NCBI GenBank assembly: GCA_022822405.1
Contig: JAJEBT010000169.1
Span: forward strand, 1 to 64,000
Source: Alphaproteobacteria bacterium
Lineage (GTDB): Bacteria; Pseudomonadota; Alphaproteobacteria; MPNO01; UBA830
Direction: 5' to 3'
Length of the DNA stretch: 64,000 nucleotides
A program made the translations under genes and the position numbers. The notes below the pieces were generated by a model. That model was given only the letters and a program-made list of their open reading frames with translations. It was not told the origin of the DNA and made no database searches. This document shows, in pieces, positions 22,798-43,495 of the stretch (its first letter is position 1; each line of letters begins with the position of its first letter).

Positions 22798-22827
22798 ACG
22801 GCACCGGACACCTGGCACCGGTGCCGT
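22798..22827 (+). terminator. Hairpin terminator after the YciI gene
   Basis: ACGGCACCGG (22798-22807) and CCGGTGCCGT (22818-22827) form a perfect 10-bp stem with a 10-nt loop, followed by the T-rich CTTGCTGTT. It lies 22 bp after the YciI stop and 8 bp before the stop of the convergent acyl-CoA ligase, so it may terminate both transcripts. Confidence 0.65.
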
Positions 22828-22835
22828 CTTGCTGT

Positions 22836-24332: not shown

Positions 24333-24394
24333 GCGGGGACGCCCCTTATCCTGCAATCGCAGTCCGCTACGGCCACGCCGCCGCCTCACAGAGC

Positions 24395-26080
24395 CTACCG
24401 TCCCTCGTTCCCCAAGCCATCGTCGACGACGACATCGAGCAGCGTCGGCCCGTCGCGCCGGGTCGACTCGGCGATGGCAGGCCCGATGTCGTCGGGATCC
24501 CCGATTCGCACCGCCGCCACACCCATTGAGCGGGCGAGGCCGGTGAAGTCGATCGGCGGGTCCTTGAACTCCATGCCGGTGTAATCCTCGACGCCGTGGA
24601 ATGCCTTCAGCCGCTCCCTGATGATGCGGTAACCGCCGTTGTTGGCGATGATGTAGGTGATCGGAAGTTTCGCGTTTGCTGCCGTCCAGAGCGCCTGGAT
24701 GCTGTACATCGCGCTGCCGTCGCCGACGACGGCGACGACCGGCCGGTCCCTGAGCGCGAGCTGAACTCCTACCGCACCCGCCATCGCAAACCCGATCCCG
24801 CCGCTGCCGAGGCCGAAAAGCGCCTTCGCATCGCGGAAGGGATAGAGCGCCGGCAGCGAGCGGCCGCTCAGGATGCCCTCCTCGACGATGACCGCGTCTT
24901 CCGGCAGCGCGTCGACGATCCGGAGCATCGCGAGATCCGGGGCGATCACCGCGGCGTCGGGGCGTGCCAGTATCCTGGCGCGGAGGGCCTCGCGCTTCGC
25001 GAACCAGTTGGAGGTCCGGAGCGCCGCGAGCGAGGCCGCCGCCTTCTCGGCCCCCTCGGCGCCACGCTTTCTCTCGATCGTAACGGCCAGGGCGCCAAGC
25101 GTTTCCTTGACGTCGGCGCGCAAGGCGATCTCCGCCGGATAGTTCTTCCCCATTTCCCAGTCCCGAAGACCGACCTGGACCAGCGCCATGCCTTCAGGCA
25201 ACGGGTCGGTCTCGCTGAACACGGACATGCGCAGCACGTCCGAACCCATGCAGAACATCAGGTCATAGGGCGAGAGAGTATCGCGGACATCCGGCTGTTC
25301 GCGGCTGAGCCCGCCCATGAAGGCGGGGTGCTCGGAGAGAAAATGGGCGCCGTCGCACACCGTCTGCTGATAGACCGGCGCGCCCAGCGCCTCCGCAACC
25401 GCCGCCGCTTCTCTCAGCGCGTCCGAGGTCGCGATTTCGTGCCCGGCAAGGAGCACCGGGTGCTTGGCCACGAGGAGCCGGTCCGCGAGTTGATCGAGCG
25501 CCGCGTCGCTCGGTCGGCCGGCGGTATCAACCCGGGTGGGCCGGCCGAGCTCGAGCGCGTCCTGCTCGTTCAGGACGTCACCCGGCAGCGAGATGAACAC
25601 CGGTCCGGTCGGCGGCGTCATCGCGACCTTCGCGGCCCGTCGCACGATGCGCGGCAGGTCCTGGAGCCGGTTGACCTCCACTGCCCATTTCACCAGCGGC
25701 TGGGCGATCGGCACCAGCGGCGCGTAAAGCAACGGTTCGGTCAGACCGTGCCCCTGCTCCTGCTGTCCGGCGGTGACGATGATCGGCGAGCCCATCCAGT
25801 TGGCGTTGAAGAGCGAACCCATGGCGTTGCCGAGCCCGGGCGCGACATGAACGTTGCAGGCGCTGAGCCCGCCCGAGGCGCGAGAGAAGCCGTCCGCCAT
25901 CGCCACCACCAGCGCCTCCTGCAGCGCCATGACATAGGTGATTGCCGACCGATCGGGCAACGCGGCCATGATCGGAAGCTCCGTGGTGCCGGGATTGCCG
26001 AACAGATGGGTTACGCCTTCGCTCTCGAGCAGCGAGAGAAAGGCCTCCCGGCCGAAGATGGTGTTCAGGGTATCAGGCAT
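24395..26080 (-). CDS. Thiamine-diphosphate enzyme, benzoylformate decarboxylase-like
   Basis: The 561-residue protein has the three-domain layout of TPP-dependent 2-keto acid decarboxylases. The catalytic Glu is E55 in MALQEALVVAMADGFSRASG. FGNPGTTELP (27-36) and the active-site His in NVHVAPGLGNAMGS (H78) match benzoylformate decarboxylase. The TPP motif GDGSAMYS...NNGGY is intact. It would decarboxylate an aryl-2-keto acid to the aldehyde, or condense keto acids. The second catalytic His of benzoylformate decarboxylase is not obvious, so acetolactate synthase-like or oxalyl-type activity cannot be excluded. It is on the same strand as, and upstream of, the acyl-CoA ligase. Confidence 0.88.
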   Translation of the reverse strand: MPDTLNTIFGREAFLSLLESEGVTHLFGNPGTTELPIMAALPDRSAITYVMALQEALVVAMADGFSRASGGLSACNVHVAPGLGNAMGSLFNANWMGSPIIVTAGQQEQGHGLTEPLLYAPLVPIAQPLVKWAVEVNRLQDLPRIVRRAAKVAMTPPTGPVFISLPGDVLNEQDALELGRPTRVDTAGRPSDAALDQLADRLLVAKHPVLLAGHEIATSDALREAAAVAEALGAPVYQQTVCDGAHFLSEHPAFMGGLSREQPDVRDTLSPYDLMFCMGSDVLRMSVFSETDPLPEGMALVQVGLRDWEMGKNYPAEIALRADVKETLGALAVTIERKRGAEGAEKAAASLAALRTSNWFAKREALRARILARPDAAVIAPDLAMLRIVDALPEDAVIVEEGILSGRSLPALYPFRDAKALFGLGSGGIGFAMAGAVGVQLALRDRPVVAVVGDGSAMYSIQALWTAANAKLPITYIIANNGGYRIIRERLKAFHGVEDYTGMEFKDPPIDFTGLARSMGVAAVRIGDPDDIGPAIAESTRRDGPTLLDVVVDDGLGNEGR

Positions 26081-26595
26081 GGCGTTTCACGCGGACAAGG
26101 AATGACACCCCCTGATGATACAGATTTCCTGATCTGGCGGTAGGCGGGCAAGGCCGCGTCTCTTCGGACCGACGATGAGCGGGCGATCAGAGGCAAGCCG
26201 GCGGGCCGGTCCCGGAGACCGCGCAGATTGGCACTGAAACCGAACCGCGATAGCCGGAGACAGCCTGTTGCGTGCTGACCGGATCCCCGCGGGCGGCATG
26301 GCCACGGCTGCGGTGATCACGGAAGCGGCGTCGACTTCGACGAGACCGTCATTCCGACCCTGCACACCTGATGGATCGAGGAGGTGTGGAGGCCTCTCGA
26401 ATTCCGGGACGAAACGATCTCCATATCCGGAATGCCGCGGAATTCCTGGTCGAGCGCGAGGCCAGCATTATCGGCACCGGCGACTTCACCCCGTCGGCCG
26501 TGCCGCTACGGCTGAAGGGCCCGGAGGGCTTTCTTGTCCGGGTCGTGCGACAGTCGAAGACTGAAGGGGTTCGGGCTGGTCCGGCTGCCCGGACG
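26081..26595. other. 515-bp intergenic region with a possible gene remnant
   Basis: No intact gene. Around 26340-26560 on the plus strand two frames show protein-like composition in succession (for example FLVEREASIIGTGDFTPSAV), interrupted by stops and without a ribosome site, which could be a decayed coding sequence. I could not assign a family. The rest should hold the promoter of the benzoylformate decarboxylase-like gene. Confidence 0.3.
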
Positions 26596-27660
26596 TCATT
26601 CGGCAGCGGCGGCCCTCGGTTCTGTGACGCGCATGCGCTGGAGCGCACGGCGCGCGAGCGCAACTGCCTCGTCATGACGGCGGTAGTGCAAACCGCGTTC
26701 CCGATTGCGCAGGACCGCTGCCTGCTGAGCCTCGATCATGGTCTTGTCTTCCATGAACGCGTCAGCAATATCCTTGTATAACTGCTTCCCGGCAGCCGTT
26801 GTGGCCGGACAGTTATGGTTCGCTACCGACCAGAAATAGTGGCAGCTCGTTTCCGATTCCGGTGTCGCGTGATGGAACAGCCGCAATGACACGCCACCGT
26901 CCTGATTCCGGTTCTCCGTCGCGTCGCGGCCGACCTCCAGCGCACCGCCCCACTGCAGCACCGAGCCCGGTGCCACATACTCGAAATCTGACCAGCGATC
27001 CACGGGACCCTGGAATCCGGCCGCCGCAACGAAGGATGGAGGCGGAGGCGAGGCCATCATCCATCTGATGAATCTGGCGCCGTTCTCGGTCGCAGCCGTC
27101 TCGAGCGTTGCATCGACATGCGACTGCGGAAATCCTCCGATAGTGGAACCATGGACATATCCAAGATGCGTCAGGTCCATGAGGTTGTCGATTACGAACA
27201 TGAAATTCGCGGCGTAGTGGTAGTGACCGAACTGGAATGGCCATTCCTCGCCTGCCTCGTGGAACGGATAGTCGATGATCGCGGACTGATCAGCGAGGCC
27301 GGGATCGCCCATCCAGACCCAGACGAAGTGCTGCCGCTCGACGACGGGGAACGAGCGCACCCGGTAAAGCCCCCGATCGTCTTCCTCTCCCGGATTTCCT
27401 ATGCACGCGCCGTCGCGGCCAAAAACCATGCCGTGATAGCCGCACTGGATACCGTCCCCGACGACGCTGCCAAGGCTGAGCGGCGCAGCACGATGGCAGC
27501 ACCTGTCTTCGAGAATGGCGGCATCGCCCGAGGCATCGCGGAACAGAACCACATCTTCGCCGAGCAGTCTGCGCGCAAGCGGCGCCTCGGTGACTTCGTG
27601 CGACCAGGCGGCGATATACCACGCGTTGTGAACAAGGGGTTCAATCGGACAGTTAGACAT
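26596..27660 (-). CDS. VanA-like Rieske ring-hydroxylating oxygenase subunit
   Basis: The 354-residue oxygenase component has a Rieske [2Fe-2S] site C54-x-H56...C73-x2-H76 (RCCHRAAPL and CGYHGMVF) and a mononuclear iron site in NLMDLTHLGYVH (Asp and two His). It resembles vanillate O-demethylase oxygenase and related phenoxy/aryl O-demethylases. The start was set at ATG 27660, before PIEPLVHNAWYIAAW, with GGGGAGG upstream; the longer frame lacks support. A reductase partner (VanB-like) is not nearby. A close paralogue starts at 63375. The pathway role is probably demethylation or hydroxylation of an aromatic acid; the substrate is unknown. Confidence 0.88.
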   Translation of the reverse strand: MSNCPIEPLVHNAWYIAAWSHEVTEAPLARRLLGEDVVLFRDASGDAAILEDRCCHRAAPLSLGSVVGDGIQCGYHGMVFGRDGACIGNPGEEDDRGLYRVRSFPVVERQHFVWVWMGDPGLADQSAIIDYPFHEAGEEWPFQFGHYHYAANFMFVIDNLMDLTHLGYVHGSTIGGFPQSHVDATLETAATENGARFIRWMMASPPPPSFVAAAGFQGPVDRWSDFEYVAPGSVLQWGGALEVGRDATENRNQDGGVSLRLFHHATPESETSCHYFWSVANHNCPATTAAGKQLYKDIADAFMEDKTMIEAQQAAVLRNRERGLHYRRHDEAVALARRALQRMRVTEPRAAAAE

Positions 27661-28115
27661 CGACGCGCCTCCCCGGCCAGCTTCCAGAACTTGTAGCACG
27701 GGTCTTGCCCAACATGGAAACTGCAGCACCCGGCCGCAACGAGATTTTCAGTTGGTTGTGACCCGCTTGAACGGCTTCGGTTCCCTGCCCGACCTGCCGA
27801 TGGCCGTCCAGACTCAGCCACCGGTCAACAACGAAGCTGCGCGCATCCGGCTTCTCCGCAGCTCGTCAGACCTCCACGCACGCAGGATAGTACGCCAAGC
27901 GCACGGCATGCATACGCCGGACCTGATGGTCGAACGCGAACGTGCCGCGTCGCCCGGGACCGGAGTTGCCGGCGGCCTTCCGGCATCGCGCCAAGAAGAC
28001 GGCTTCATCAGACTCCAGTGACCGCCTTGGAACCGACCCTCCTTCAACACCCAATGATCGCCTGAATACCCCGACCGATGCAGGGCGTTGCCGGTCCGCG
28101 TCCAGCCCTGGCCAC
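27661..28115. other. 455-bp intergenic region
   Basis: Lies between two minus-strand genes. Short frames on both strands show no domain and no ribosome site. It probably holds the promoter of the Rieske gene. No clear hairpin terminator for the upstream oxidoreductase was found. Confidence 0.4.
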
Positions 28116-30156: not shown

Positions 30157-31017
30157 ATGGCAACTAGACTGGGCCTGGACGTGCGGGGATTTGATGCGCC
30201 GCTTGGAGCGGAAATCACCGGACTTGATCTCCGCAAACCTCTCGACCGCGAGACCGTGGCGGAAATCCTCGCCGCCTGGTACCGCCACCAGGTGCTGGTT
30301 TTCCCAGACCAGGATCTGTCACCGCAGCAGATGGTGGATTTCACCGGCCAGTTCGGCGAGCCCGGCAAGCCCCGCATGCCGTCGCGCACCGTGCGTGACA
30401 TCCTGCCGAACCTGCCGCCCGAGGTCATGATCGTATCGAACATTCGCGTGGACGGCAAACCCATGGGGCTGCCGCATGACGGGGAGATGTGGTTCCACAG
30501 CGACATGTGCTACGTCGAAGTTCCGCACACCGCAACACTCCTCTATGCGGTCGAACTGCCGTCATGGGGCGGCAACACGCTGTTCGCCGACATGTATGCC
30601 GCCTATGACAGCCTTCCGGCTTCGCTCCGCAACCGGCTGGAAGATTGCCGGGCGCTTCACATCCATGACTACAAACGCACCGACCGGCCGAGTCTCGATG
30701 TCGATTTGGACAAGGTCGGGAACTTTGCCCATCCGGTCTTCATCACCCATCCCGAGACCGGACGAAAGGCGCTCTATGTCAATCGGTTGATGACGGCGCG
30801 CATCGAAGGGCTCGATCCGGCGGAAAGCGACGGACTTCTCGAAGAACTCTTTACAGCGTCGGAAGACCGGTCGCTGGTCTACGAACATGTCTGGAAACCG
30901 GGCGACCTCGTGATGTGGGACAATCGCTGCATCACCCACGCGCGCACCGATTTTCCGGAGAACGAGCGCCGCCTGCTGCGGCGCACGACCATCGTGGGAA
31001 CCCAAGCACCCCGCTGA
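30157..31017 (+). CDS. TauD/TfdA-family dioxygenase
   Basis: The 286-residue enzyme is a non-haem Fe(II)/2-oxoglutarate-dependent dioxygenase. Iron ligands are H114 and D116 (MWFHSDMCY) and a distal His in [10 protein letters not shown] (about residue 260); the following Arg-rich strand [11 protein letters not shown] binds 2-oxoglutarate. Relatives oxidise taurine, 2,4-D, carnitine precursors or other side chains. GTG 30154 and ATG 30157 are adjacent; ATG was chosen. It shares a very short divergent promoter region with cysS and has no same-strand partner, so the substrate is open. Confidence 0.88.
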
Positions 31018-31047
31018 GAACTGCCGCACCGAACCCGGGCAGCAGAG

Positions 31048-32040
31048 TCAGTTGGCGACCCACTCCCCCTTTCCGCGGCTTTTGAGCATCACGCCCTCGA
31101 AGAGTTCTTCCACCGGAATCAGCGACGAGATCAGCCCGCCCTGGTGTGAATAGCTGATCAGGCTTTCCAGATTTCGGCGATTGGCGGCGCCTAGACCGTA
31201 TTCCCACGGATCGCGCCCGAGCAGTTCCTGCTGCGCCTCCCATTCGTCCATGAACCAGGCGAGCGGCACCGTGCGCGGGTTGGTGAGCCGGCGATAGGCC
31301 TCGATCTTGGCCTTTTCGAAGGCAAGCGCCAGATTGCTCACGACCCACGGATGCTGTTCGACGATCTCCCTGCGAAGCGCCGTAACATGCATGATGGGAA
31401 ATATGCCGGTACGCTCGAAATATGCCCTCTCTTCCGAACGATAATCGCTGAAAAGGCGCGCTACCCGCCGGTCTCCGCGCAGGATCGGAGCAATGATGTC
31501 GGGGTGCAGGGCCGCATCCAGTTCGCCCTCGGCCAGCATCTCGGAAATATCGGAGCCCTCGGGCGCGCGCGACAGCCTGAGGCCTGCAGGCGGCTCGAAC
31601 GGTATATCCTCGTCGAGTTCGGTGACCCAGTCGATCGAGGTCAGATCGACGCCATATTCGTTGGCCAGCAATCCCCGCAGATAGAGCGTTGCCGTCGTCT
31701 GATAGGTTTTGAGGCCGACCCGCTTGCCTTCAAGGTCCTTCGGTTTTGAAATCCCGCTTGACGCGTTGACATAGATAAAACCGTGACGGAAGCGACGGTG
31801 CAGGAATACCGGTATCGCGGTGAACGGCCGGCCACGGTCCCGAGCCATCAGATAGGACGAACCCGAGAGCTCGCATACATCGAACTCCCGATTGCGGATC
31901 ATGCGCCAGTGGCGGGAGGACGAGTCCATATCCGTAAGCACGTTGAGCGATATTCCGTCGGCCTCGATCGTGCCTTCCTTGAGAGCGCGTATGATCTCGT
32001 AGTCGCCACAAGCCAGAGTCAGTTCGAGTTTGCGTGCCAC
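31048..32040 (-). CDS. 4,5-dihydroxyphthalate decarboxylase-like / substrate-binding-fold protein
   Basis: The 330-residue protein has a type 2 periplasmic-binding fold like Pht5 (4,5-dihydroxyphthalate decarboxylase) and many proteins labelled ABC substrate-binding. LELTLACGDYEIIRALKEG at the N-terminus and FDVCELSGSSYLMARDRGR (about 53-71) are typical. There is no signal peptide, so it is probably cytoplasmic, favouring an enzymatic role over transport, and no ABC permease genes are nearby. Start is GTG 32040 with GGAGA 5 bp upstream. It lies 76 bp downstream of the cupin gene on the same strand. Confidence 0.82.
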   Translation of the reverse strand: MARKLELTLACGDYEIIRALKEGTIEADGISLNVLTDMDSSSRHWRMIRNREFDVCELSGSSYLMARDRGRPFTAIPVFLHRRFRHGFIYVNASSGISKPKDLEGKRVGLKTYQTTATLYLRGLLANEYGVDLTSIDWVTELDEDIPFEPPAGLRLSRAPEGSDISEMLAEGELDAALHPDIIAPILRGDRRVARLFSDYRSEERAYFERTGIFPIMHVTALRREIVEQHPWVVSNLALAFEKAKIEAYRRLTNPRTVPLAWFMDEWEAQQELLGRDPWEYGLGAANRRNLESLISYSHQGGLISSLIPVEELFEGVMLKSRGKGEWVAN

Positions 32041-32116
32041 ATCGTCTCCATTTCGCGAGGTCGGACCGGTCGATGGTCAGTTGCGAGCGGGGCGCCGGAA
32101 CCGCACCCGCCCGGGA

Positions 32117-32662
32117 TCATGTAGTGGTGCGCAGTTCAGCGTCCGGGTTGTCCTCCCGCTGCAGGCGCAGCAATTCGGGATCCGCGTAGAGCGGGCGCGC
32201 GGGCTTCGGATTCCCCAGCATGACCTGGAAGAAGCAGTCCTCGTCGCTATCGTTGCGGATGCAGTGGACCTGTCCCGGCGGGTTGTAGACCATGTCCCAG
32301 GGCCCGAGCGTCCGCGTGACAACCTCGCCATCCTTCTGCCAAACGACCGTGGGATGTCCCTTGAGGACGAAGAAGACCTCCTCCTCGTCCGGATGGTTGT
32401 GCATTGGCTGCTCATGGCCTGGAGGCATCTCCAGTATGCTGAGTGTGAAACTCGCCCCCATCAGCGCGTTTGGGTCGTTGTGATCGATGTTGCCGCTGGT
32501 TCCCAGATAGCGGCGCTGGGACCGCGCGAACTTCTTGTCAACCTGGGTTTCGAATCCCCACACCCGCCAACTCGCGTTGCGCGTCGAGAACGTCTTGCAA
32601 TGCCGGTCAAGGGCGGCCTCAAGCTCGCCATCGGCCCGGTTTTCCTGGATCACGGTTGCCAT
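32117..32662 (-). CDS. Cupin domain-containing protein
   Basis: The 181-residue protein has one cupin_2 barrel. The first metal motif lies in GHEQPMHNHPDEEEVFFVLK (His-x-His and Glu), and the second His in YNPPGQVHCIRN. Such a site could make it a small metal-dependent dioxygenase, isomerase or sensor. ATG 32662 follows GAGGGG and lies 7 bp after the stop of the isochorismatase-like gene, so the two are in one operon. The longer upstream frame is a shadow of that gene. Confidence 0.85.
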   Translation of the reverse strand: MATVIQENRADGELEAALDRHCKTFSTRNASWRVWGFETQVDKKFARSQRRYLGTSGNIDHNDPNALMGASFTLSILEMPPGHEQPMHNHPDEEEVFFVLKGHPTVVWQKDGEVVTRTLGPWDMVYNPPGQVHCIRNDSDEDCFFQVMLGNPKPARPLYADPELLRLQREDNPDAELRTTT

Positions 32663-32669
32663 TTTCCCC

Positions 32670-33374
32670 TCATTCCGCCGCCTGCGCGGCACCGTAGGTT
32701 CTGCGAACATGTTCCACGATGTCGTCAAGAACCATGACATCGGCATATTTGTGATGCATGTCAAACAAATTGACCTTGTGCGAGAGTTCGGAGCGGTCGA
32801 ACACGCATTCCTCGGCAATCGTGACGTGATAGCCGTTGGAATAGGCATCGACGACCGAGGCGCGCACGCATCCTGAAGTGCTTTCACCGCACACGATCAG
32901 GCTGGAGACCCCGGCTCGGACCAGATGCGCGACCAGCGGCGTCGAGTGAAACGCGCTTGCGCGCTCCTTGCGGATGACAACCTCTCCGGGCTCTGGCGCA
33001 AACGCTGGATGGATGTCCAGCATGTCCGCGGAAACTCCTTTTTCCGGCTGGCGCCGGGTCGACCGGACGCGCCCTTTCCGGACGGAGCCGGTGACGTGAA
33101 ACACGGGGAGCCCGGCTTCCCTGCAGGCAGCGAAAAGCCGCTGGATCGGCCCGACCGCTTCCCAGGCGAACCTGCCGCAACTGTTGGGAAATTCCGCAGC
33201 CAACTCATGGGGCGCCTTCTCGGGGTCGCCGCGAAACACGAGATTGTACAGATCGATGGCAAGAAGCGCCGGACGCTGACCCACGAAGACTTCACGGCGA
33301 TAGGGTTCGTAGATCTTCAGAATTTCGGCTGAAACGATGTCCTTCCAGCAGTGGTCTTCAAAATCCCGCGCCAT
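32670..33374 (-). CDS. Isochorismatase-family cysteine hydrolase
   Basis: The 234-residue protein has the full catalytic triad of the isochorismatase-like amidohydrolases: D41 (LLAIDLYNLVF), K136 (VVIRKERASAF) and C169 (CGESTSGCVRASVVDAY). Relatives include N-carbamoylsarcosine amidase, maleamate amidase, nicotinamidase and RutB, enzymes that release ammonia or carbamate from amides. ATG 33374 matches the family N-terminus better than 33416. It is co-directional with the cupin gene and divergent from the cyclase-family gene across 249 bp. In this context it is a candidate amide-hydrolysing step after opening of an N-containing ring. Confidence 0.88.
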   Translation of the reverse strand: MARDFEDHCWKDIVSAEILKIYEPYRREVFVGQRPALLAIDLYNLVFRGDPEKAPHELAAEFPNSCGRFAWEAVGPIQRLFAACREAGLPVFHVTGSVRKGRVRSTRRQPEKGVSADMLDIHPAFAPEPGEVVIRKERASAFHSTPLVAHLVRAGVSSLIVCGESTSGCVRASVVDAYSNGYHVTIAEECVFDRSELSHKVNLFDMHHKYADVMVLDDIVEHVRRTYGAAQAAE

Positions 33375-33623
33375 GCCCCACCGTCCCTCGCGTCCCGTTC
33401 GGTTTCCCGGCCACAACCGGCGCCGGAAAGAGCGGCATCCCGCCGCAAGCGCCGGATCAAGAATTCAGAGCATGGCCGTTTTCGGGATCTGATGCAACAG
33501 GATTGCGGTGATGACAGGCTGCTCAAGAGCAAGGTGGTGATCGGCGTGACCTTCGGCCTTTGCAGCTAGCTGACGAAAGCGACTATCATGCCGTGCCGTT
33601 CCAAGATCTTGGGAGACCCTGCA

Positions 33624-34469
33624 ATGAAGATTCTCGACCTGTCGCACATGATGAACCTTCACACACCCGGCTGGGTAGGCTACGCCGGCAACAAGATGTA
33701 TTACGCCCAGAACCTCCAGACCGGCGGGATCGTCGCCCAGCGCGTCGACACCGCCATGCATGTCGGCACGCACATAGACGGGGCAATGCACGCCTCCGAC
33801 GTCAAAGGCGACATGTCCTCCTATTCGCTCGACTACCTGGTCGGCCCGGGCGCGGTCGTGGACATCTCGGACAAGATCGACGACTGGGGCCTGATCACCC
33901 CGGACATGCTGGAATCGGCTCCGGTCGACATTCACGACAACGACATCCTGATCATCCATACGGGCTTCCACCGTTACTACGAGGGTCGACCACAGCAGGA
34001 TCTTGAGCGGTATTTCTGTCTGCATCCCGGTGGTGGTCGTGAGCTCATTGAATGGATGTTCGATAAGAAAATCAAATGGTTCGGCGTCGACTGCGGGTCT
34101 GGCGACCATGCGATGAACACGTCGATCCGCAAGATGCGCCCCGATCTCCGGGCGCGCTTCGAGGAACAGATCGGGATGACATGCGAGGAGTACTTCGGCG
34201 AATACGAGTACACGCATGCACTGTCGGGCCGGAAGATCCGGTCGGATATCTTCATGTTCCACAGCTGGGCTTTCAATGACGGGCTGATTCACGCCGAGAA
34301 TGTCGGCGGGGATATCGAACTTGCGCTGAACCAGCGCTTCATCATCGGCGCGTTTCCATGGCGTTTCGAAGGCCTCGAGGCCTGCCCGTGCCGGATCATC
34401 TGTTTTTCCGACGTGGGCGACTCGGTCGAGACCGTGGGTGCCGTTGCCAAGGCTCTTCGCGACCAGTAA
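33624..34469 (+). CDS. Cyclase family protein (kynurenine formamidase-like)
   Basis: The 281-residue metal-dependent hydrolase has the signature MHVGTHIDGAMHA, giving metal ligands His46, His50 and Asp52 with His56 close by. The family includes arylformamidase (KynB), isatin hydrolase and cyclamide-type hydrolases, which open formamides or lactam rings. GGGAG precedes ATG 33624. It is first of a plus-strand pair with the cytosine-deaminase-like gene. Isatin hydrolase-like or formamidase-like activity on a hydroxylated heterocycle would fit the neighbours, but this is inference. Confidence 0.87.
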   Translation: MKILDLSHMMNLHTPGWVGYAGNKMYYAQNLQTGGIVAQRVDTAMHVGTHIDGAMHASDVKGDMSSYSLDYLVGPGAVVDISDKIDDWGLITPDMLESAPVDIHDNDILIIHTGFHRYYEGRPQQDLERYFCLHPGGGRELIEWMFDKKIKWFGVDCGSGDHAMNTSIRKMRPDLRARFEEQIGMTCEEYFGEYEYTHALSGRKIRSDIFMFHSWAFNDGLIHAENVGGDIELALNQRFIIGAFPWRFEGLEACPCRIICFSDVGDSVETVGAVAKALRDQ

Positions 34470-34773
34470 CCACGCCGTCGCGGCAACCATGATTACAGCG
34501 CGCCAAAACCGCGATGGGTCTCATGTACACCAGCGAAAACGGGGCTTTGCGGAAGCATCCGCCAGTGTTTCGCGTGTCTCGCGGCAGGTCGTAGCCGCAG
34601 ATCTCGAGACCGCCGAACTCATCTCCAGTCCGGCGAGCGAAGCAGACCCTGGATGCAACCACAACAACCCGGCCCGTGACGAAGCCCCATGCGAACTGCG
34701 TGCAGTCAATCGATCCTGAATGTCTGCCGACCACGTCCGGCGCCAACGCGATACCGAACAGGAGCAAGACAAA
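34470..34773. other. 304-bp spacer between co-directional genes
   Basis: Lies between the cyclase-family gene and the deaminase-like gene. I see no gene and no strong hairpin. AGGAG near the end serves ATG 34774. A separate promoter for the deaminase-like gene could lie here. Confidence 0.35.
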
Positions 34774-36012
34774 ATGTCCCTTATCATCCGAAACGCGAGG
34801 CTCCTGGACAAGGACGGCACATGGGATATCTCCACGGACGGCAGCCTCATTGCCGCAGTCGAACGCAACATTCCCGCCAACGGAGCCGACCAAATCGATG
34901 CCGGCGGCCGACTGGTCGCGCCGACCTACGTCAACGGCCATGTCCACCATGACAAGAGCAACCTCGGCGACGTCATGCGTCCGAACAGGACCAACAGTTT
35001 CCAGGAATGCCTGGAAATCACCTGGGAACACAAGCGCACATATACCGTCGACGATATCGTGGAGCGCGCCAGCCGGGCCATTGAAGAAGGCATACTGCAC
35101 GGCGCCACCGTGTTCCGCGTCTTCGCAGATGTCGACTCGATCGGCGGAATGACCCCGCTTGAGGGAATCATCGCGCTGCGCGAGAAATGGGCAGGAATTG
35201 TCGAGATCGAAGCGGTCGACTTCCCCCAGGAAGGGATCATCCGTGATGCCGGGACAAAGGACCTGATGCGCGAGGGCATGAAGATTGGCGCCGACATCGT
35301 CGGCGGCCTTCCGTGGCATGAACATCTGGACGAGGACGCCCGCGCGCATATCGATTTCTGCTTCGAACTGGCAATGGAATACGACAGGGATATCCACATG
35401 CTGGCAGACGATACCGACAACCCGAACAGCCGTTCCCTTGAATATCTTGCAGCCAAGACCCTCCGCGAAGGTTATCAGGGCCGGGTGTCGGCAAGTCACT
35501 GCGGAGCCCTGGCCGCCTATGACGAGGTTCACGCGCGGAAAGTCATTGCGCTTGTCGCCGAGGCCGGGGTGTCCGTCTCGACAAATCCGCACATCAGCCT
35601 TGTCGCCCAGGGCCGCCACGACACCGGCAACATGCGTCGCGGGGTCACTCGCGCAAAGGATCTCTGGAAAGCCGGCGTCAATGTGTTTTCAGCACAGGAT
35701 GACGTGAATGATCCATACTATCCGTTCGGCAGAAACGATCAGCAGGAAGTTGCCTCTTTTGTCTGCCACACATGCCACATGACCTACCCGGACGAAATCC
35801 GCGCTGTCTTCGACTTCGTGACATGGAATGCAGCAAGGGCTCTGCGTCTGGACGGTTACGGGATCGCGGCCGGCCGGAAAGCGGACATGAATGTGCTGTG
35901 CGCATCCACCATCCAGCATGTTCTCAGACTACAGCAGCCTCCGGCATTCGTGATCAAGGCGGGCCGGATTCTCGCAAGGAATAATATCGAGCGCGAGATT
36001 CTCGGCGCATGA
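34774..36012 (+). CDS. Cytosine deaminase-like amidohydrolase
   Basis: The 412-residue TIM-barrel metal hydrolase resembles cytosine deaminase and related isoguanine/creatinine deaminases. Metal ligands include H56 and H58 (VNGHVHHDKS), His in MLADDTDN and ASHCGAL regions, and the catalytic Asp in SAQDDVNDPYYPFG. The stretch STNPHISLVAQGRHD matches the family. MLADDTD replaces the usual HxxE-type HVDE motif, so two of the normally conserved metal or acid positions differ and the substrate may be unusual. AGGAG lies 9 bp before ATG 34774. It is convergent with the coxMSL operon. Confidence 0.85.
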   Translation: MSLIIRNARLLDKDGTWDISTDGSLIAAVERNIPANGADQIDAGGRLVAPTYVNGHVHHDKSNLGDVMRPNRTNSFQECLEITWEHKRTYTVDDIVERASRAIEEGILHGATVFRVFADVDSIGGMTPLEGIIALREKWAGIVEIEAVDFPQEGIIRDAGTKDLMREGMKIGADIVGGLPWHEHLDEDARAHIDFCFELAMEYDRDIHMLADDTDNPNSRSLEYLAAKTLREGYQGRVSASHCGALAAYDEVHARKVIALVAEAGVSVSTNPHISLVAQGRHDTGNMRRGVTRAKDLWKAGVNVFSAQDDVNDPYYPFGRNDQQEVASFVCHTCHMTYPDEIRAVFDFVTWNAARALRLDGYGIAAGRKADMNVLCASTIQHVLRLQQPPAFVIKAGRILARNNIEREILGA

Positions 36013-36167
36013 GCATCGGTCGGCCTGGTTTCACGGAACCCTTGCACCGGCCCGGCGTTCTTACCCGTCCTGTTCCCTCTACCCCGAACCAAGGCTGTCG
36101 ACCACGCCGGACGAGATTTCGGAAACTGCTCCAGACTCGCGAACTGTCAGCCTCGACATCCTCCGGA

Positions 36168-38447
36168 TCAAGTCCGCCGACCCAGGATCTCGTGCAACCG
36201 CATCGGTGAGATCGGCAGCCGTGTCACCGCGCCGGGATCGCCGATCGCCGCGCCCACGGCAGACGCTATGGCGGCACCGGACGCGTTGATTCCGCATTCT
36301 CCCGCCCCCTTGACACCCAGCGGATTGGTGCCGCTCGGCGCATCCTCGGTGATGATGAACTCGATGTCCGGAATCTCCTTGGCGGTGGGCCAAAGATAGT
36401 CTGCAAATGTAGCGCTGATCGGCTGGCCGTCTTCGGTGTACAGAAACTCCTCGTAGAGAGCGCCGCCGATCCCCTGGGCCATGCCGCCTGCAATCTGCCC
36501 CTCGATCAGAGTAGGGTTCACGGCCCGCCCGACATCGTACGCCACCACGATTCGTTCGATATCCAGACCGGCCGTTTCTCCGTCGACGCGGACAACGGCA
36601 AGATGGATTCCGTAAGGATAGGTCATGTGCGTGGTCTCGAAGGTCGCTTCGGCCGACAGGACCTCTCCGCCATGATCGTCGAGACGCGAGGCCACAACCT
36701 CCGACACACTCATCGACGGCCCGTCTTCGCGACCTTGCGAACCGACGCGGCCGGCTGAGATCGTCAGTTCCGCAGCTGACAGCTGTAGCTTCTCCGAAGC
36801 TGTCTCGATCAGCAGCGATCGGAGTTGCGCTGCCGCCTCGGCCGTTGCCGACCCCGTCATGACGGTCACGCGCGAGGCAAAGGCACCCATTCCGCGCGCG
36901 ATCAGGTCCGTACGGCCGTGGGTGACCGTGACCGAACCATAGTCGACGCCCAGTGCGTCGGCACAGATCTGGGCGATAACCGTTTCGACACCCTGGCCGA
37001 CCGACGCAACACCAGTGACGATCTCGACCGCCCCGTCGCGACCGATTTCCATGCGCACGTCGTCATAGGGACCCAGACCGCTCTTCTCCACGAAGTAGGC
37101 GATCCCCAGACCGACGAGTTCGCCCCGTGCGCGCCGGGCGCTGAGTCGCGCCTGCAACTCTTCGTAGCCGACGTGGTCGAGCAGCCGTTCAAGGAGCTTC
37201 GGATAGTCGCCCGAATCGTAGACCAGCGGCGTTCCATGATTCGCAATGCCGCGGTCATACGGCATCATCCGAGCCGGAATCAGGTTTCTCCGCCGCATCT
37301 CCACGGGATCGATTCCCATCCGGTCGGCGATCAGGTCGACGAGCCGTTCGCGGGCAAATGTCGATTCGTAGCGTCCCGGCGCCCGGTAGGTACCGCACGG
37401 AGTCTTGTTGGTCAGTCGCACGCGCCCCCGCGTGCGATAGGACGGCACCAGGTAGGGACCCGGCAACATTGCCGCCGAGAGATCCGTCACCGTGGCACCA
37501 TGGGTCCGGATGTAGGCTCCCTGGCTGGTGAAAAACTCGTTTTCCATGGCCCGAATGACTCCGCTGCGGTCGACGGCGGCGCGAAGCCGGTAGACCTGCT
37601 CGCGGGAATGGTTAGCTGCGACCAGGTTTTCCATCCGGTCCTCGATCCACTTGACGGGCCGGCGGAAGCGAAGGGCCGCATAGGCGCACAGCACGTCTTC
37701 GGGATAGAGTTCACCCCGGACGCCGAAGCCGCCGCCGACATGGCCCTCGAAGAGATGAATCCTGTCCGGATCCAGTCCGAGCATCTCGGCAATCGCCAGG
37801 CGGTTGAAATGGGGCACCTTCGCTGCACCGAAGAATTCCAGACGGCCAAGTTCGGAATCGTAGCGGACATTGGCGCCACGCGTCTCCAGCGCAACGCCGG
37901 TATGGCGGCCGATCTCGAACTCGAACTCGAACACGTTCTCGGCAGCAGCAAAAGCCGCATCGACGTCCCCGTAGCCCTTCTCGACGATCGCCGGTTCCGT
38001 GCTCACCCCGGGAGCGAATTCCCCGGGCGGCGCTGTTGCATCCAGTATCGGGGGGAGAACATCGATTCGCGGCGACACCAGGTCGGCGCCGTCCTCGGCG
38101 ACATACGAATCGTCAGCAAATACGACAGCGACGGGATCACCCACATATCGCACCCTGTCCTGCGCGAGAACGTGCTGACGACACGCCGGTAGATTCTGGA
38201 TCTTGTGAAGGCGGAAATCGATCGGCGGCAGATGGGCGACGTCACGACCTGTCCAGACCGCATGTACGCCATCCAGCGCGAGCGCGTCCGTTGTCTCGAC
38301 CGAAAGGAGAACACCGTGCGCGACCGGTGACCGGACCACCCGCATGTGCAACTGATCCTCGAACGTGTAATCGGCCGCGAAGCTGCCCTCGCCCAGCAGC
38401 AATTCGCGATCCTCTAGCCGTTTCACCCTCTGCCCGACAACGCTCAT
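36168..38447 (-). CDS. Molybdopterin-binding large subunit, CoxL-like
   Basis: The 759-residue catalytic subunit of a second xanthine-dehydrogenase-family molybdenum hydroxylase. The N-terminus SVVGQRVKRLEDRELLLGEG is typical, the molybdopterin region GHVGGGFGVRGELYPED is intact, the active-site loop is TYRAPGR (not CO-type AYxCSFR), and GVKGAGECGINASG near the C-terminus carries the catalytic Glu. It starts at ATG 38447, overlapping the coxS stop by ATGA, so translation is coupled. Together with the next two genes it forms a complete coxM-coxS-coxL operon. An N-heterocycle or aldehyde is the expected kind of substrate. Confidence 0.92.
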   Translation of the reverse strand: MSVVGQRVKRLEDRELLLGEGSFAADYTFEDQLHMRVVRSPVAHGVLLSVETTDALALDGVHAVWTGRDVAHLPPIDFRLHKIQNLPACRQHVLAQDRVRYVGDPVAVVFADDSYVAEDGADLVSPRIDVLPPILDATAPPGEFAPGVSTEPAIVEKGYGDVDAAFAAAENVFEFEFEIGRHTGVALETRGANVRYDSELGRLEFFGAAKVPHFNRLAIAEMLGLDPDRIHLFEGHVGGGFGVRGELYPEDVLCAYAALRFRRPVKWIEDRMENLVAANHSREQVYRLRAAVDRSGVIRAMENEFFTSQGAYIRTHGATVTDLSAAMLPGPYLVPSYRTRGRVRLTNKTPCGTYRAPGRYESTFARERLVDLIADRMGIDPVEMRRRNLIPARMMPYDRGIANHGTPLVYDSGDYPKLLERLLDHVGYEELQARLSARRARGELVGLGIAYFVEKSGLGPYDDVRMEIGRDGAVEIVTGVASVGQGVETVIAQICADALGVDYGSVTVTHGRTDLIARGMGAFASRVTVMTGSATAEAAAQLRSLLIETASEKLQLSAAELTISAGRVGSQGREDGPSMSVSEVVASRLDDHGGEVLSAEATFETTHMTYPYGIHLAVVRVDGETAGLDIERIVVAYDVGRAVNPTLIEGQIAGGMAQGIGGALYEEFLYTEDGQPISATFADYLWPTAKEIPDIEFIITEDAPSGTNPLGVKGAGECGINASGAAIASAVGAAIGDPGAVTRLPISPMRLHEILGRRT

Positions 38448-38929
38448 CCGGACTCTCCGTCCAGCACGTCCCGCACCGCCTTGAGGATGTTCAGGTACCC
38501 CGTGCAACGGCAAAGATTGGAGGCCATGACCTCCCGCAATTCGTCATCATCGACCGGTGTGCCGCGCTCCACGAGCCAGGTGGCGAGCATCAGCATGCCA
38601 GGCGTGCAGAATCCGCACTGCAACGCGTGGTGATCATGAAATGCCTGCTGGAGCGCGCTGTACGCCCCGTTACGGGCCAGCCCCTCGACCGTCCGGATTC
38701 TTCGGCCGTCGGCCTGCACCGCAAACATCAGGCACGCACGCACGGGAAGGCCGTCCAGAAGAACCGTGCAGGCACCGCACACCCCGTGCTCACAGCCGAT
38801 ATGCGTGCCCGTCAGGCCGCAGCTGTCGCGAAGCGTATCGACAAGCGTCCGCCGGGCCTCGACCTCCACCTCGTGGTCGACGCCGTTGATGTTGAACGCC
38901 AGGGCCAGACGCTCGGCTCCCATGGTCAT
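38444..38929 (-). CDS. [2Fe-2S]-binding subunit, CoxS-like
   Basis: The 161-residue small subunit carries both clusters. The plant-type ferredoxin cluster has C46, C51, C54 (GCEHGVCGACTV) and C66. The second cluster lies in QCGFCTPGM and LCRCTGYLN. It passes electrons from the molybdenum site to FAD. ATG 38929 overlaps the coxM stop (ATGA), but the Shine-Dalgarno GGGAGG sits directly against it and is 6 bp before the in-frame ATG at 38923, so translation may start there, two residues shorter. Confidence 0.93.
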   Translation of the reverse strand: MTMGAERLALAFNINGVDHEVEVEARRTLVDTLRDSCGLTGTHIGCEHGVCGACTVLLDGLPVRACLMFAVQADGRRIRTVEGLARNGAYSALQQAFHDHHALQCGFCTPGMLMLATWLVERGTPVDDDELREVMASNLCRCTGYLNILKAVRDVLDGESG

Positions 38930-39801
38930 CCTCCCGCGGCCACCACTGTCCCGGCTGCATCGCCAAGCGCCCGCGCAACCAGGACCCTTGCAAGATCGCG
39001 ACGGTACGCGGCTGTCGCATGATGATCGTGAAGCGCGTCAACCCCTTCCAGCGCGGCTTCGCCGGCACGGTTGAACAGCGCCTGTGAAACCGCCTGCCCT
39101 CTCAACACCGCTTCGGCGGATTCTGAACGGAACGGAGCGGCCCCGACGCCGCCGATGCCGATCCGGGCATCGGCAACGCATCCGTCCTGGACCTGGATGC
39201 ATGCCACGGCGAGGGCCAGCGCAAAATCTCCGGCGCGACGGCTGAATTCGCGAAACCCGCAACTCCAGCCTTCCTCGAGTACGGGAAGACGGATTTCGCG
39301 GACGACCTCGCCGGCCTCAAGCGCAGTGGTCAGCAGAGACAGGAAGAAATCCCGCGCGCCGACCGGTCTCTTGCCAGCGGGTCCCTCGACAAGCACTGTC
39401 GCGTCGAGCGTCACGCTGAGGGCGCACCACTCGGACGCCGGATCCGCATGCGCCAGGCTGCCGCCGAAGGTCCCGCGCATGCGGATCGGCACGTGGGCGA
39501 TGTGGCGGCTCATTTGCGGCAGCAGGCGGCCCAGGGGGCCGTCGCAGACTGGTGAGTCGAACCGGATGTGGCGGGCGAGTGCGCCGATCCTCAACTCGCC
39601 GTCCTCGACATCGACGCGGTCCGCATCGCCGATCATATTCAGATCAACGAGAACGGCGGGACGCGCGAGACGAAAATTCATCGCCGGCACCAAGGTCTGT
39701 CCGCCTGCCAGCACCCTCGCCTCATCACCGTGCAGCTCCAGTTGCGCGATGGCATTGGACCACGATGCGGCACGGACGTATCGGAACGGCGCCGGCTTCA
39801 A
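38926..39801 (-). CDS. FAD-binding subunit, CoxM-like
   Basis: The 291-residue medium subunit opens with KPAPFRYVRAASWSNAIAQL; FAD motifs are LAGGQTLVPAMN (about 31-42) and RGTFGGSLAHADPASEW (about 108-124). Start is an unusual TTG at 39801: an in-frame TGA lies 7-9 bp upstream, and the first internal ATG would remove the first FAD motif. GGTGA about 6 bp before supports TTG. First gene of the coxMSL operon, divergent from the class II aldolase gene. Confidence 0.91.
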   Translation of the reverse strand: MKPAPFRYVRAASWSNAIAQLELHGDEARVLAGGQTLVPAMNFRLARPAVLVDLNMIGDADRVDVEDGELRIGALARHIRFDSPVCDGPLGRLLPQMSRHIAHVPIRMRGTFGGSLAHADPASEWCALSVTLDATVLVEGPAGKRPVGARDFFLSLLTTALEAGEVVREIRLPVLEEGWSCGFREFSRRAGDFALALAVACIQVQDGCVADARIGIGGVGAAPFRSESAEAVLRGQAVSQALFNRAGEAALEGVDALHDHHATAAYRRDLARVLVARALGDAAGTVVAAGG

Positions 39802-40185
39802 TGCGTGTCACCATTGGTCTTGTTCATGTCGACATCCCTGGTGGCGGTACCGTTCACCGGTTGCCCGGGTCGCTGCCGGCAGGGGGACCGTCACTGCGCG
39901 GTCTGCGCTCCTGCCACGGCCATGCCCGGTTCCCAGGCCCGCCAGCAGCATGGACAGACGCGAATCATATGGGACGACATGGATCAAGCCAAACCGCGTC
40001 CTGCAGACCAGCGGCCTGCTCCGGCCAGGCCGAGGCCGAACTCGCATTGCGCGACAGCGCTTCTTCCCCGCGGCAGGAGCGATCGTGGCAACCCGACACC
40101 GGGACCGGAACCCTTCCGCTGTGGCGGCTCCACGGACGGCATGTTATCATTATTCGTGCTCTCCGACGCGAGCAAGGATGCTGGC
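39802..40185. other. 384-bp divergent intergenic region
   Basis: Separates the coxMSL operon (minus) from the class II aldolase gene (plus) and must hold both promoters. The long frame read through it upstream of 40186 is antisense to coxM and not protein-like. AAGGA near 40175 is the aldolase ribosome site. I see no convincing operator. Confidence 0.4.
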
Positions 40186-40902
40186 ATGAACAGACTGATC
40201 GAGACCATGCGCGATGTCGTGATCGCGAACCGCATTCTGGCGCGCGAGGAGGTCGTCGACGCCTACGGCCATGTCAGTATCCGCAATCCGGAAGATCCCG
40301 ACCGCTACCTTCTCAGCCGGTCGCGCAGCCCGGAACTCGTGACCAGCGACGATGTCATGGAGTTCACGCTCGAGGGCGAGCCGATAGACGACGACCGCAC
40401 GCCCTACGCCGAACGCCACATCCACGGTGCCATCTACGAAGCACGCCCCGACGTGAACTCGGTGGTGCACAACCATTCCCACGCCGTCATACCCTTCAGT
40501 GTCACGCCCAGCCGCCTGCGGGCAATAGCGCATGTCGGCGCCGCCATAGGCAAGGACATTCCGGTCTGGGACATCAGGACCCGATTCGGTGACACCAACC
40601 TTCTCGTGGTCAACATGGAACACGGCCGCGATCTTGCCGCCAAGCTTGGTGAAAACACGGTCGTCCTGATGCGTGGACATGGCTGTGCCGTGGCCGGGCG
40701 GACAGTCGAAGCCGCGGTCATGACCTCAATCTATCTGCAGGTGAATGCCCGCCTGCTGCAGGACACGATGCGACTGCACGACGAAATCGAGTACCTGTCC
40801 GACGGCGAGATCGAGAACTGCTCGCAAACGTTCCTGAGCGATTTCTCGGTCCAGCGAGCATGGGAGTATTTCCGCCGGCGCGCCGGCGCCGATTCCCTGT
40901 AG
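40186..40902 (+). CDS. Class II aldolase/adducin family protein
   Basis: The 238-residue zinc enzyme of the fuculose-phosphate aldolase/adducin fold. Ligands are E76 (TPYAERHIH), H95 and H97 (VVHNHSH) and a distal His in LMRGHGCAV. The family cleaves hydroxy-keto compounds or decarboxylates hydroxylated aromatics (for example 3,4-dihydroxyphthalate decarboxylase). ATG 40186 was chosen over 40141 because AAGGA lies 8 bp upstream. It is divergent from coxMSL, and a decarboxylating or retro-aldol step on the hydroxylated product is a reasonable inference. Confidence 0.87.
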   Translation: MNRLIETMRDVVIANRILAREEVVDAYGHVSIRNPEDPDRYLLSRSRSPELVTSDDVMEFTLEGEPIDDDRTPYAERHIHGAIYEARPDVNSVVHNHSHAVIPFSVTPSRLRAIAHVGAAIGKDIPVWDIRTRFGDTNLLVVNMEHGRDLAAKLGENTVVLMRGHGCAVAGRTVEAAVMTSIYLQVNARLLQDTMRLHDEIEYLSDGEIENCSQTFLSDFSVQRAWEYFRRRAGADSL

Positions 40903-41031: not shown

Positions 41032-42282
41032 ATGAATACACTCACAGGCGATCTCGTACGCCCCTTCGCCGGCATCCGCGCAGCGCCCGACAAGGCTGAT
41101 CAGATCGCGGCGCCACCCTACGACGTCGTGACCACCGACGAGGCGCGCGCCCTCGCCGCCGGCCGCCCGCTCAACTTCCTGCATGTCTCGCGCGCGGAAA
41201 TCGGCCTGCCGCCAGACACCGACCCCCATTCCGACCGGGTCTATGCAGCCGCAGGGCAGCACATGCGCGATCTGCTGGCTTCAGGCGCCCTGATTCGCGA
41301 CCCCGAACCCTGCTATTACGCCTATCGCATGACCGGGCAGGCCCGATCCCAGACGGGCATCGTGGTTTCGGCGTCGATCGACGCCTATCGCGCCAACCGC
41401 GTCCGCAGGCACGAATTGACCCGTCCCGACAAGGAAAACGACCGCGCCCGCCAGATCGGGGCCGTGAACGCAATTACCGGTCCGGTCCAGCTTGTTCACC
41501 GCGCAAATGCGCCGTTGTCAAGCCTGCTTGCGCTCGCGACATCCACCAGCCCGGACGCGGTCAAACCCGATCTCGACGGGATCCGTCACGAACTCTGGGT
41601 GATCGACGACCATTCGATGGTGAACGACGTCTCGCGGATCATCAACGGGATGGATGCGCTCTACATCGCCGACGGGCATCACCGCTCCGCAGCAGCAGCC
41701 CAGGTTTTCGGTACATCCCGCAAGAGAGGAACGGACCGCCGGGATGACGCGTACCGCGGCTTTCTTGCCGTCAGCTTTCCCGACAACGAGGTGACGATTC
41801 TCGACTACAATCGCGTCGTCACCGACCTCGGTGGCCGGTCTGCCGACGAGTTCGTCTCAGTTCTTTCCGAACAGTTCACGATCCGGCCGGCAGAGACGCC
41901 AGTCCGGCCCGACAGACCGGCGCAGTTCGGCATGTATCTGGCCGGATGCTGGCATTTTCTGGAACCGAAGGTGGTGGCGGCGAGCGAAGACCCCATCACC
42001 GGGCTCGACGTCAGCCGCCTCAGCCACCTGATTCTCGAGCCAGTGCTCGGGATTGGCGACGTGCGCACCGACCCGCGGATCGACTTCGTCGGCGGCGGAC
42101 GCGGCATCGAAGCCGTTGCCGCGCGCGTCGACTCGGGAGAGATGGCAGTAGGTTTCACGATGTTTCCCACGCGGCTCGACGAGCTGATGGCGGTCGCGGA
42201 CGCCGGGCTGGTCATGCCTCCTAAATCCACCTGGTTCGACCCCAAGCTCGCGGACGGGCTGATCTCCCAACCACTTGACTGA
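41032..42282 (+). CDS. DUF1015 family protein
   Basis: The 416-residue protein matches DUF1015: RPFAGIRAAPDKADQIAAPP (about 10-29), the block RRHELTRPDKENDRARQI (about 122-139) and IADGHHRSAAA (about 211-221), the phosphoryl-transfer-like core. Some relatives act as free-serine kinases (SbnI- and SerK-like) and many lie near serine biosynthesis genes; here none is present. The ribosome site before ATG 41032 is weak. It overlaps or abuts the MFS gene downstream, suggesting co-transcription. Confidence 0.85.
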   Translation: MNTLTGDLVRPFAGIRAAPDKADQIAAPPYDVVTTDEARALAAGRPLNFLHVSRAEIGLPPDTDPHSDRVYAAAGQHMRDLLASGALIRDPEPCYYAYRMTGQARSQTGIVVSASIDAYRANRVRRHELTRPDKENDRARQIGAVNAITGPVQLVHRANAPLSSLLALATSTSPDAVKPDLDGIRHELWVIDDHSMVNDVSRIINGMDALYIADGHHRSAAAAQVFGTSRKRGTDRRDDAYRGFLAVSFPDNEVTILDYNRVVTDLGGRSADEFVSVLSEQFTIRPAETPVRPDRPAQFGMYLAGCWHFLEPKVVAASEDPITGLDVSRLSHLILEPVLGIGDVRTDPRIDFVGGGRGIEAVAARVDSGEMAVGFTMFPTRLDELMAVADAGLVMPPKSTWFDPKLADGLISQPLD

Positions 42283-42292
42283 GGAACAGCCG

Positions 42293-43495
42293 GTGGGATC
42301 CGCCGATCGTTCCGCCGGCACGGTCGCGATCGCCCTCGTCGCGACCACTGCCGTCCAGGCTCTGGTCACGATGGCCACGCTGACGATGTCGATCCTGGCA
42401 CCGCGAGCAGCGCAAGACGTCGGAATTCCTGCCGAGAATATCGGGTTCTACGCCTCGATCGTCTATGTAGGCGCCATGGTGGGCTCGCTGACCGCGGGTG
42501 GTTTCGTGCTTCGCTTCGGTGCCATACGGTTTTCGCAGATCGCCATGCTGACTTGCGCTGTCGGGCTGGTCATTGGCGTTGGCGCGCACTGGAGCCTGCT
42601 GCTGGTTTCTGCTCTCGTCTGCGGACTCGGCTACGGCCCGACGACACCGGCAAGCAGCCACATTCTTTCCCGTCACACGCCGCCCCGGTTCCTGTCACTC
42701 GTATTCTCCATCAAGCAGACAGGAGTACCGCTCGGCGGCCTGATCGCCGGACTGCTCATCCCGCTGTTCCTCGTGTGGTTCGACTGGCAGGGCGCCATGT
42801 GGGCGGTTACCGCCACCGTCCTTCTCGGGCTGATTTTCCTGCAACCGACGCGTCGGCGTTTCGACAGCGGCCTCGAAGCCGGCGCTCCGCTCCTCAGGGG
42901 AAACATCATCGGACCCCTGCGCCTCGTGTTCTCGAGACGGGAACTCCGCGTCCTGATAGCCGGATCGTTCCTGTTTGCAGCCCTGCAACAGTGCTACACT
43001 TATTTTCTGGTGACATTTCTTCAGACCGAGATCGGCTGGTCCAACCAGAAGGCCGGACTCGCGCTGTCCGTTCTCGGCGCATCCGGGGTGGTCGGCCGCG
43101 TCCTGTGGGGCGCCGTCGCCGACGCGACCGGACGCAGCGACACCGTGCTCGCCTTCCTCGCCTTCGGCATGGCCGCAAGCGCGGGGGTTACCGCGGCGAT
43201 CACGCCCGATTGGAGTGACTGGACCGTTCTCGCCATCTGCGCGGCGTTCGGGCTCACCGGCATCGCATGGAACGGTGTCTATCTTGCCGAAGTGTCGCGA
43301 CGTGTCGCGCCCGAAGAAGCGGGCCGGGCGACCGGTGGCGGACTCTTCGTCACCTTTTCGGGGGTGGTCATCGGACCGGCGGTCTTCGGTCTGATCACGC
43401 AGATCACGGGAGGATTTTCCGCCAGCTATCTCATTCTCGCAGCGGCGACTGCCGCCGCAGGCCTGCCGTTGCTGCGAAAGGGAAAGGCATCATGA
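42293..43495 (+). CDS. MFS transporter
   Basis: The 400-residue, about 12-helix major facilitator resembles cyanate/oxalate-formate-type carriers; the loop motif resembling the MFS A motif lies between helices 2 and 3 (SLTAGGFVLRFGAI). The start was placed at GTG 42293, because GAGGAA at 42281-42286 is spaced correctly; a TTG at 42275 would overlap the DUF1015 stop. The substrate is unknown. It is last of the plus-strand pair before the convergent secA. Confidence 0.85.
   Translation: MGSADRSAGTVAIALVATTAVQALVTMATLTMSILAPRAAQDVGIPAENIGFYASIVYVGAMVGSLTAGGFVLRFGAIRFSQIAMLTCAVGLVIGVGAHWSLLLVSALVCGLGYGPTTPASSHILSRHTPPRFLSLVFSIKQTGVPLGGLIAGLLIPLFLVWFDWQGAMWAVTATVLLGLIFLQPTRRRFDSGLEAGAPLLRGNIIGPLRLVFSRRELRVLIAGSFLFAALQQCYTYFLVTFLQTEIGWSNQKAGLALSVLGASGVVGRVLWGAVADATGRSDTVLAFLAFGMAASAGVTAAITPDWSDWTVLAICAAFGLTGIAWNGVYLAEVSRRVAPEEAGRATGGGLFVTFSGVVIGPAVFGLITQITGGFSASYLILAAATAAAGLPLLRKGKAS

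Follow-up and report, generated by a model that had tools for sequence, protein, structure and literature searches.

Does the interval at positions 30157-40902 of contig JAJEBT010000169.1, from an uncultured Alphaproteobacteria bacterium, encode one catabolic route for an N-heteroaromatic compound, or a set of genes that lie together by accident? The window, that is, the whole stretch of 64,000 nt that was analyzed, was annotated from open reading frames and by profile searches against Pfam and NCBIfam. We lean, if only slightly, towards a catabolic route composed of CoxLSM hydroxylation, ring opening by a PF04199 'cyclase' and deamidation by an isochorismatase-family enzyme, with one group of genes (module B) inserted in another (module A). 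From the observed families, synteny, conserved residues and trees, we infer the following reactions, order and substrate class. The CoxLSM enzyme would hydroxylate a ring carbon beside the nitrogen to give a lactam or imide, the PF04199 metallohydrolase would open the ring hydrolytically, and the isochorismatase-family enzyme would release ammonia from the amide or carbamoyl group so formed. The likely substrate of a CodA-like protein is a ring intermediate, on which it would act via a changed metal center and not as a canonical deaminase; the two decarboxylase-like proteins of module A (Pht5 and aldolase) may work on ring compounds that bear carboxyl groups, either in this pathway or in a linked one. 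What is new in the locus is the way in which known enzyme families are combined; the kind of system is not new.

All eight families named by an earlier, sequence-only reading of this DNA were recovered by the profile searches where it had placed them. The molybdenum hydroxylase is complete, as that reading had it, with CoxL, CoxS and CoxM all found, and the divergent pairs it described exist (isochorismatase/cyclase and CoxM/aldolase). Its remark that the combination and order match no pathway known to it agrees with our literature search, in which no matching described pathway was found; a search on uracil or barbiturate with molybdenum returned no paper, and one on homarine returned no usable paper. 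Riboflavin catabolism was considered and set aside, since the interval lacks the genes that define it.

The molybdenum hydroxylase is encoded on the reverse strand by the genes for the CoxL-type molybdopterin subunit (36168..38450), the CoxS-type [2Fe-2S] subunit (38444..38929; PF01799/PF00111) and the CoxM-type flavin adenine dinucleotide (FAD) subunit (38926..39801; PF00941/PF03450). The best solved match of CoxL is 7dqx, the large subunit of 6-hydroxypseudooxynicotine dehydrogenase (KDH; E 1.6e-174), with which it shares the active-site loop YRAPGRYESTFARER and the catalytic Glu (E718); it is 41% identical to kdhC. Two trees were computed, and in both the clade that holds the window CoxL is alphaproteobacterial and lies near kdhC of pAO1, the KDH branch being long and outside that clade. 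KDH being an N-heteroaromatic hydroxylase, the match and the position of the clade argue for a route of that type. The exact sister group is provisional, since the searches were quick and without bootstrap, and long branches were flagged: in an LG+G4 tree without the loci L103 and L104, the window CoxL was sister to CoxL of family f3 (support 98), and in a mixture-model tree that included them it grouped with L103/L104 (Shimodaira-Hasegawa-like approximate likelihood ratio test, 94), with CoxL of f3 joining this group next (90). At its left end (49-3262) the window has another CoxL-like gene, with 32% identity to the first, and after it a CoxM-like gene (32%).

L103 and L104 hold the closest CoxLSM relatives outside the order (CoxS about 78-84% identical, depending on the aligned stretch), and there the CoxLSM genes are divergent from a gene for a ring-opening amidohydrolase of the AtzD/TrzD family (about 545 bits; cut-off, 360), an arrangement that also argues for N-heterocycle catabolism. 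The same arrangement, together with the L103/L104 grouping, is the starting point for a pyrimidine/triazine or cyclic-ureide pathway, in which CoxLSM would oxidize a dihydroxy-pyrimidine or -triazine and the cyclase would replace a ring opener of the AtzD/barbiturase type. L104 additionally carries a RutB/BiuH-like isochorismatase and a dihydropyrimidinase-like gene, a BMP/PnrA-type transporter is found in some cyclase loci, and AtzD-family proteins above 400 bits occur in exactly six genomes of the order, which are those with the window-type CodA-like gene; this matching distribution is weak evidence, five of the six genomes being of one genus. Cyanuric acid hydrolases are marked by an Arg and barbiturases by a Gln (PMC4051656), and, judged by residue spacing, the L103/L104 proteins appear to have the Arg, so that the barbiturase reading of these enzymes was rejected in favor of a cyanuric acid hydrolase. 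With no AtzD in the window, a grouping obtained without bootstrap, and a CodA-like protein that is not a canonical deaminase, we consider the pyrimidine/triazine pathway distinctly unlikely. In the source genome (locus L097, contig C187), an AtzD/TrzD-family amidohydrolase gene adjoins a CodA paralogue with intact deaminase residues (5186-7554); the AtzD/TrzD-family protein has Asn where cyanuric acid hydrolases have Arg.

The probable ring-opening hydrolase of the proposed N-heteroaromatic route is the PF04199 metallohydrolase (33624..34469, forward strand; residue numbers count from position 33588). Its metal site is complete, with H58, H62, D64, H68, H225 and E237 invariant in 28 cyclase sequences, which supports the assignment. 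The predicted fold matched PF04199 structures only, including isatin hydrolase and KynB; the model is moderate (predicted local distance difference test, 73.6; predicted template-modeling score, 0.75), with local values under 50 in the loops that contain some of the metal motif. Isatin hydrolases carry the signature HxG[T/A]HxDxPxH with GLQC or GLAS (PMC6117287). The window cyclase has HVGTHIDGAMH, with Pro changed to Ala, and GLIHAEN replaces GLQC/GLAS. It scored 35.7 bits against the KynB profile TIGR03035 (cut-off 223); by motif, E237 lies in the region matching the Glu of KynB I(L/I)E. The label 'KynB/isatin hydrolase-like' given by the sequence-only reading thus stands for the fold and the metal motif, and falls for the isatin hydrolase signature and the KynB profile. 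Since PF04199 also contains a C-C ring-opening hydrolase (PMC10470551), cleavage of a C-N bond by the window enzyme is only presumed. A cyclic-imide hydrolase was dropped as a model, the imidase of P. putida YZ-26, taken at first for a PF04199 member, having been placed with PuuE/PgdA-type enzymes (PMC9304392).

The isochorismatase-family amidohydrolase (32670..33416, reverse strand), common to both modules, has the full triad proposed by the sequence-only reading (D55/K150/C183, by alignment to solved relatives) and a GCVRASVVDA motif. Its best PDB match, at E 1e-25, was 3ot4/3uao, an entry labeled 'Putative isochorismatase' that we take to be the maleamate amidohydrolase NicF, and N-carbamoylsarcosine amidohydrolases followed at E 3e-21 to 3e-20. 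Scores against the RutB and biuret hydrolase profiles were 37 and 41 bits, below the cut-offs of 378 and 370. In related genomes, isochorismatase paralogues (L043, L044) lie near genes that by eye resemble those of F420 biosynthesis.

A pyridine-type pathway (nicotinate, a hydroxypyridine or a pyridine carboxylate) would have this enzyme act like NicF: CoxLSM would make a di- or trihydroxypyridine, the cyclase would open it, and Pht5 and the aldolase would decarboxylate pyridine carboxylates. In its favor are the KDH and 3uao matches; the aldolase, the nearest structure of which is Mlr6791 (2z7b), presumably a pyridine dicarboxylate decarboxylase; and pAO1 of Paenarthrobacter nicotinovorans, where kdhC adjoins a PF04199 gene and a carbon-nitrogen hydrolase gene (PMC6214936), a neighborhood that also speaks for the wider N-heteroaromatic route. 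We nevertheless hold the pyridine-type pathway to be unlikely: among the interval genes we recognized no homologue of a ring monooxygenase, of NicX or of N-formylmaleamate deformylase, and the cyclases of the window and of pAO1 are not orthologous (21% identity over 137 aa, E 0.014).

The CodA-like amidohydrolase (34720..36012, forward strand) keeps the HxH and FPQEG motifs of CodA and the equivalents of H246 and D313. In CodA, H214 is the beta-5 metal ligand and E217 is catalytic. These residues are replaced by Leu and Asp in the window protein and in every one of the eight aligned orthologous rows (which include two duplicate records), and both are kept in a CodA paralogue (43-44% identical) encoded elsewhere in the source genome. 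The score against the CodA profile was 320 bits (cut-off 438), and the HxxE motif is altered. As the metal-ligand His and the catalytic Glu are lost in every orthologue, the protein is probably not a canonical deaminase, and the deamination suggested for it by the sequence-only reading is unlikely. The clade is a warning that fold alone does not suffice to transfer the name 'cytosine deaminase'.

Parts of the gene set recur in other genomes. When 84,980 species genomes were scanned with the cyclase alignment, 28 loci were returned, in 13 of which an orthologous CoxL gene lies within 10 kb of the cyclase gene, against an expectation of about 4e-4 per locus; the formal P of 5e-38 overstates the evidence, as the 13 loci include close relatives and amount, by our count, to about seven separate lineages. 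Neighbors in cyclase-family loci include genes for amidases, a nitrilase, an isochorismatase, tandem cupins and ATP-binding cassette (ABC) transporters, and these recurrent partners, with CoxL, point to N-heterocycle catabolism. A Rieske oxygenase, nitrilase, cupins or ABC transporters accompany the cyclase at further loci, among them L079 on a Rhodococcus ruber plasmid. A CodA-like orthologue (77-79%) is present in five genomes of family f3, in each case a few kb from CoxL (60-62%), and in four of them the isochorismatase gene adjoins the CodA-like/CoxL genes, the contig of the fifth ending in CoxL. One f3 genome also has the cyclase in the cluster, with a 3-hydroxyanthranilate 3,4-dioxygenase-type protein, RidA, a short-chain dehydrogenase/reductase and another cupin. 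In the sister family f2, orthologues of CoxL and of Pht5 are immediate neighbors (e.g., L084, L087 and L088). These CodA-like/CoxL and CoxL/Pht5 pairings are a further argument for the route, and because parts of the set are found together in many bacteria that are only distantly related, the pathway looks real; the co-occurrence outside the source genome on which the sequence-only reading had made its proposal depend was found, in overlapping subsets. No CoxS or CoxM orthologue was recognized adjoining the KDH-clade CoxL at the f3 loci L031 and L040-L042. On a Haloarcula plasmid (L123), a cyclase-family gene (36%) lies about 14 kb from a CodA-like gene (41%, HxxE intact), with no molybdenum hydroxylase annotated between them.

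The interval is built from two separable modules. Module A consists of the genes for a TauD-family Fe(II)/2-oxoglutarate dioxygenase (30157..31017, forward; PF02668, E 4e-65), the Pht5-like NMT1-fold protein (31048..32040, reverse), a single-domain cupin (32117..32665, reverse; PF07883, E 3e-15), the isochorismatase, the class II aldolase-fold protein (40186..40902, forward) and a DUF1015-like protein (41032..42282, forward; named by eye, with no profile and no NCBIfam match), and is contiguous in same-family genomes without the remaining genes. Module B (6.8 kb) comprises the cyclase, CodA-like and CoxLSM genes and stands between isochorismatase and aldolase only in the source genome. In the same-family genomes G001, G002 and G004 these two genes are direct divergent neighbors (aldolase orthologues 75-80% identical), not separated by any cyclase, CodA-like or CoxLSM gene; the blocks also carry Pht5, TauD, cupin, DUF1015 or CysS, varying by contig and genome, and G002 has all of them. 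TauD orthologues (70-73%) adjoin Pht5 in G002 and G005. Nucleotide similarity to G002 ends at 33374 and returns at 40204, and cyclase and CodA-like orthologues were absent from the six same-family relatives searched. The simplest explanation is an insertion of 33375-40203 in the source lineage, module A being the older lineage block. No repeats flank module B besides a 10-base inverted match, which was judged not meaningful.

The same observations are what would be expected if the neighbors were accidental, module A being an unrelated block (e.g., for aromatic carboxylate metabolism) into which module B was independently acquired, with no single pathway. Both modules share partners elsewhere, however, as isochorismatase lies close to CoxL and the CodA-like gene in f3 and Pht5 abuts CoxL in f2, and we regard accidental neighborhood as improbable. 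The eight-family cluster of the sequence-only reading survives as overlapping subsets conserved across Alphaproteobacteria, and not as one conserved cluster. The Pht5-like protein is a candidate decarboxylase, similar over its whole length to 4,5-dihydroxyphthalate decarboxylase (9jp7, E 2e-59), and the aldolase is a candidate aromatic or pyridine carboxylate decarboxylase (2z7b, E 2e-49; NCBIfam PhtC, 82 bits, under the 200-bit cut-off). By this resemblance, the two may feed the N-heterocycle route or serve a separate pathway. Pht5/NMT1-fold proteins are expanded in the order (6-16 copies in most of the 27 genomes covered), and several adjoin molybdenum hydroxylases.

Several points weigh against a single N-heteroaromatic route. 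Because module A is also found in the absence of module B, the eight genes do not have to belong to a single pathway; the cyclase of the window is remote from that of pAO1; and the CodA-like enzyme may lack activity. Among 385 sampled genomes of the class, the cyclase orthologue is rare, occurring in 3; the CodA-like gene occurs in 2 and the CoxL clade in 17. No regulator was recognized adjoining the catabolic genes, and the sole transporter nearby is a major facilitator superfamily gene (42293-43495). No interval protein reached a curated NCBIfam function cut-off, for which reason functions are given at family level only; the flanking cysteinyl-tRNA ligase (CysS) was the only protein to do so. 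Upstream of CysS (17984-27729) lie tripartite ATP-independent periplasmic (TRAP) transporter genes and genes for an acyl-CoA ligase, a thiamine diphosphate-dependent enzyme of the benzoylformate decarboxylase/acetolactate synthase type and a Rieske protein, possibly another catabolic block.

A bolder version, which we put forward tentatively and as falling short of probable, is an undescribed pathway for a widespread natural N-heterocycle, present in subsets across Alphaproteobacteria including SAR116. It would employ a molybdenum hydroxylase, a PF04199 subfamily new as ring openers and a CodA-fold enzyme whose metal site has been rebuilt; one form of it would provide a candidate gene for a pyrimidine- or triazine-oxidizing molybdenum hydroxylase. 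If the N-heteroaromatic route is right, the KDH-related CoxL clade with the PF04199 subfamily, often with cupins and amidohydrolases, would be a gene signature for a missing N-heterocycle route in soil, sludge and marine Alphaproteobacteria. Bauldia litoralis, Roseisalinus antarcticus and Tardiphaga robiniae are culturable cyclase carriers in which the substrate could be found directly.

Among known systems, the Pht5 decarboxylase shares whole-length similarity with its window counterpart, which differs in its setting: 6-16 paralogues in most genomes of the order and no phthalate genes recognized nearby. The CodA-like protein has the amidohydrolase fold and motifs of CodA and AtzC and departs from both, across its orthologue clade, at the beta-5 His and the catalytic Glu. 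With isatin hydrolase and bacterial kynurenine formamidase, the cyclase shares the fold and the H/H/D/H metal motif, not the signature or the profile score. The AtzD/TrzD neighborhoods offer the closest extra-order CoxLSM relatives, and the window has a PF04199 hydrolase in place of AtzD. Nicotinate degradation includes the NicF maleamate amidohydrolase step. The isochorismatase resembles the enzyme of that step in its closest structure (3uao) and triad, whereas NicX, NicC and NicD were not recognized in the interval, and the annotated interval genes include neither the characteristic ring hydroxylase or dioxygenase nor the downstream genes of the nic or pAO1 pathways. Compared with the lower nicotine pathway of pAO1 (KDH, a cupin, a PF04199 'polyketide cyclase' and a NIT amidase), the window has a cyclase of 21% identity, no dhpH flavin hydroxylase, an isochorismatase instead of a nitrilase-type amidase and an added CodA-like protein; both combine a KDH-like molybdenum hydroxylase, a PF04199 hydrolase and an amidase-type enzyme.

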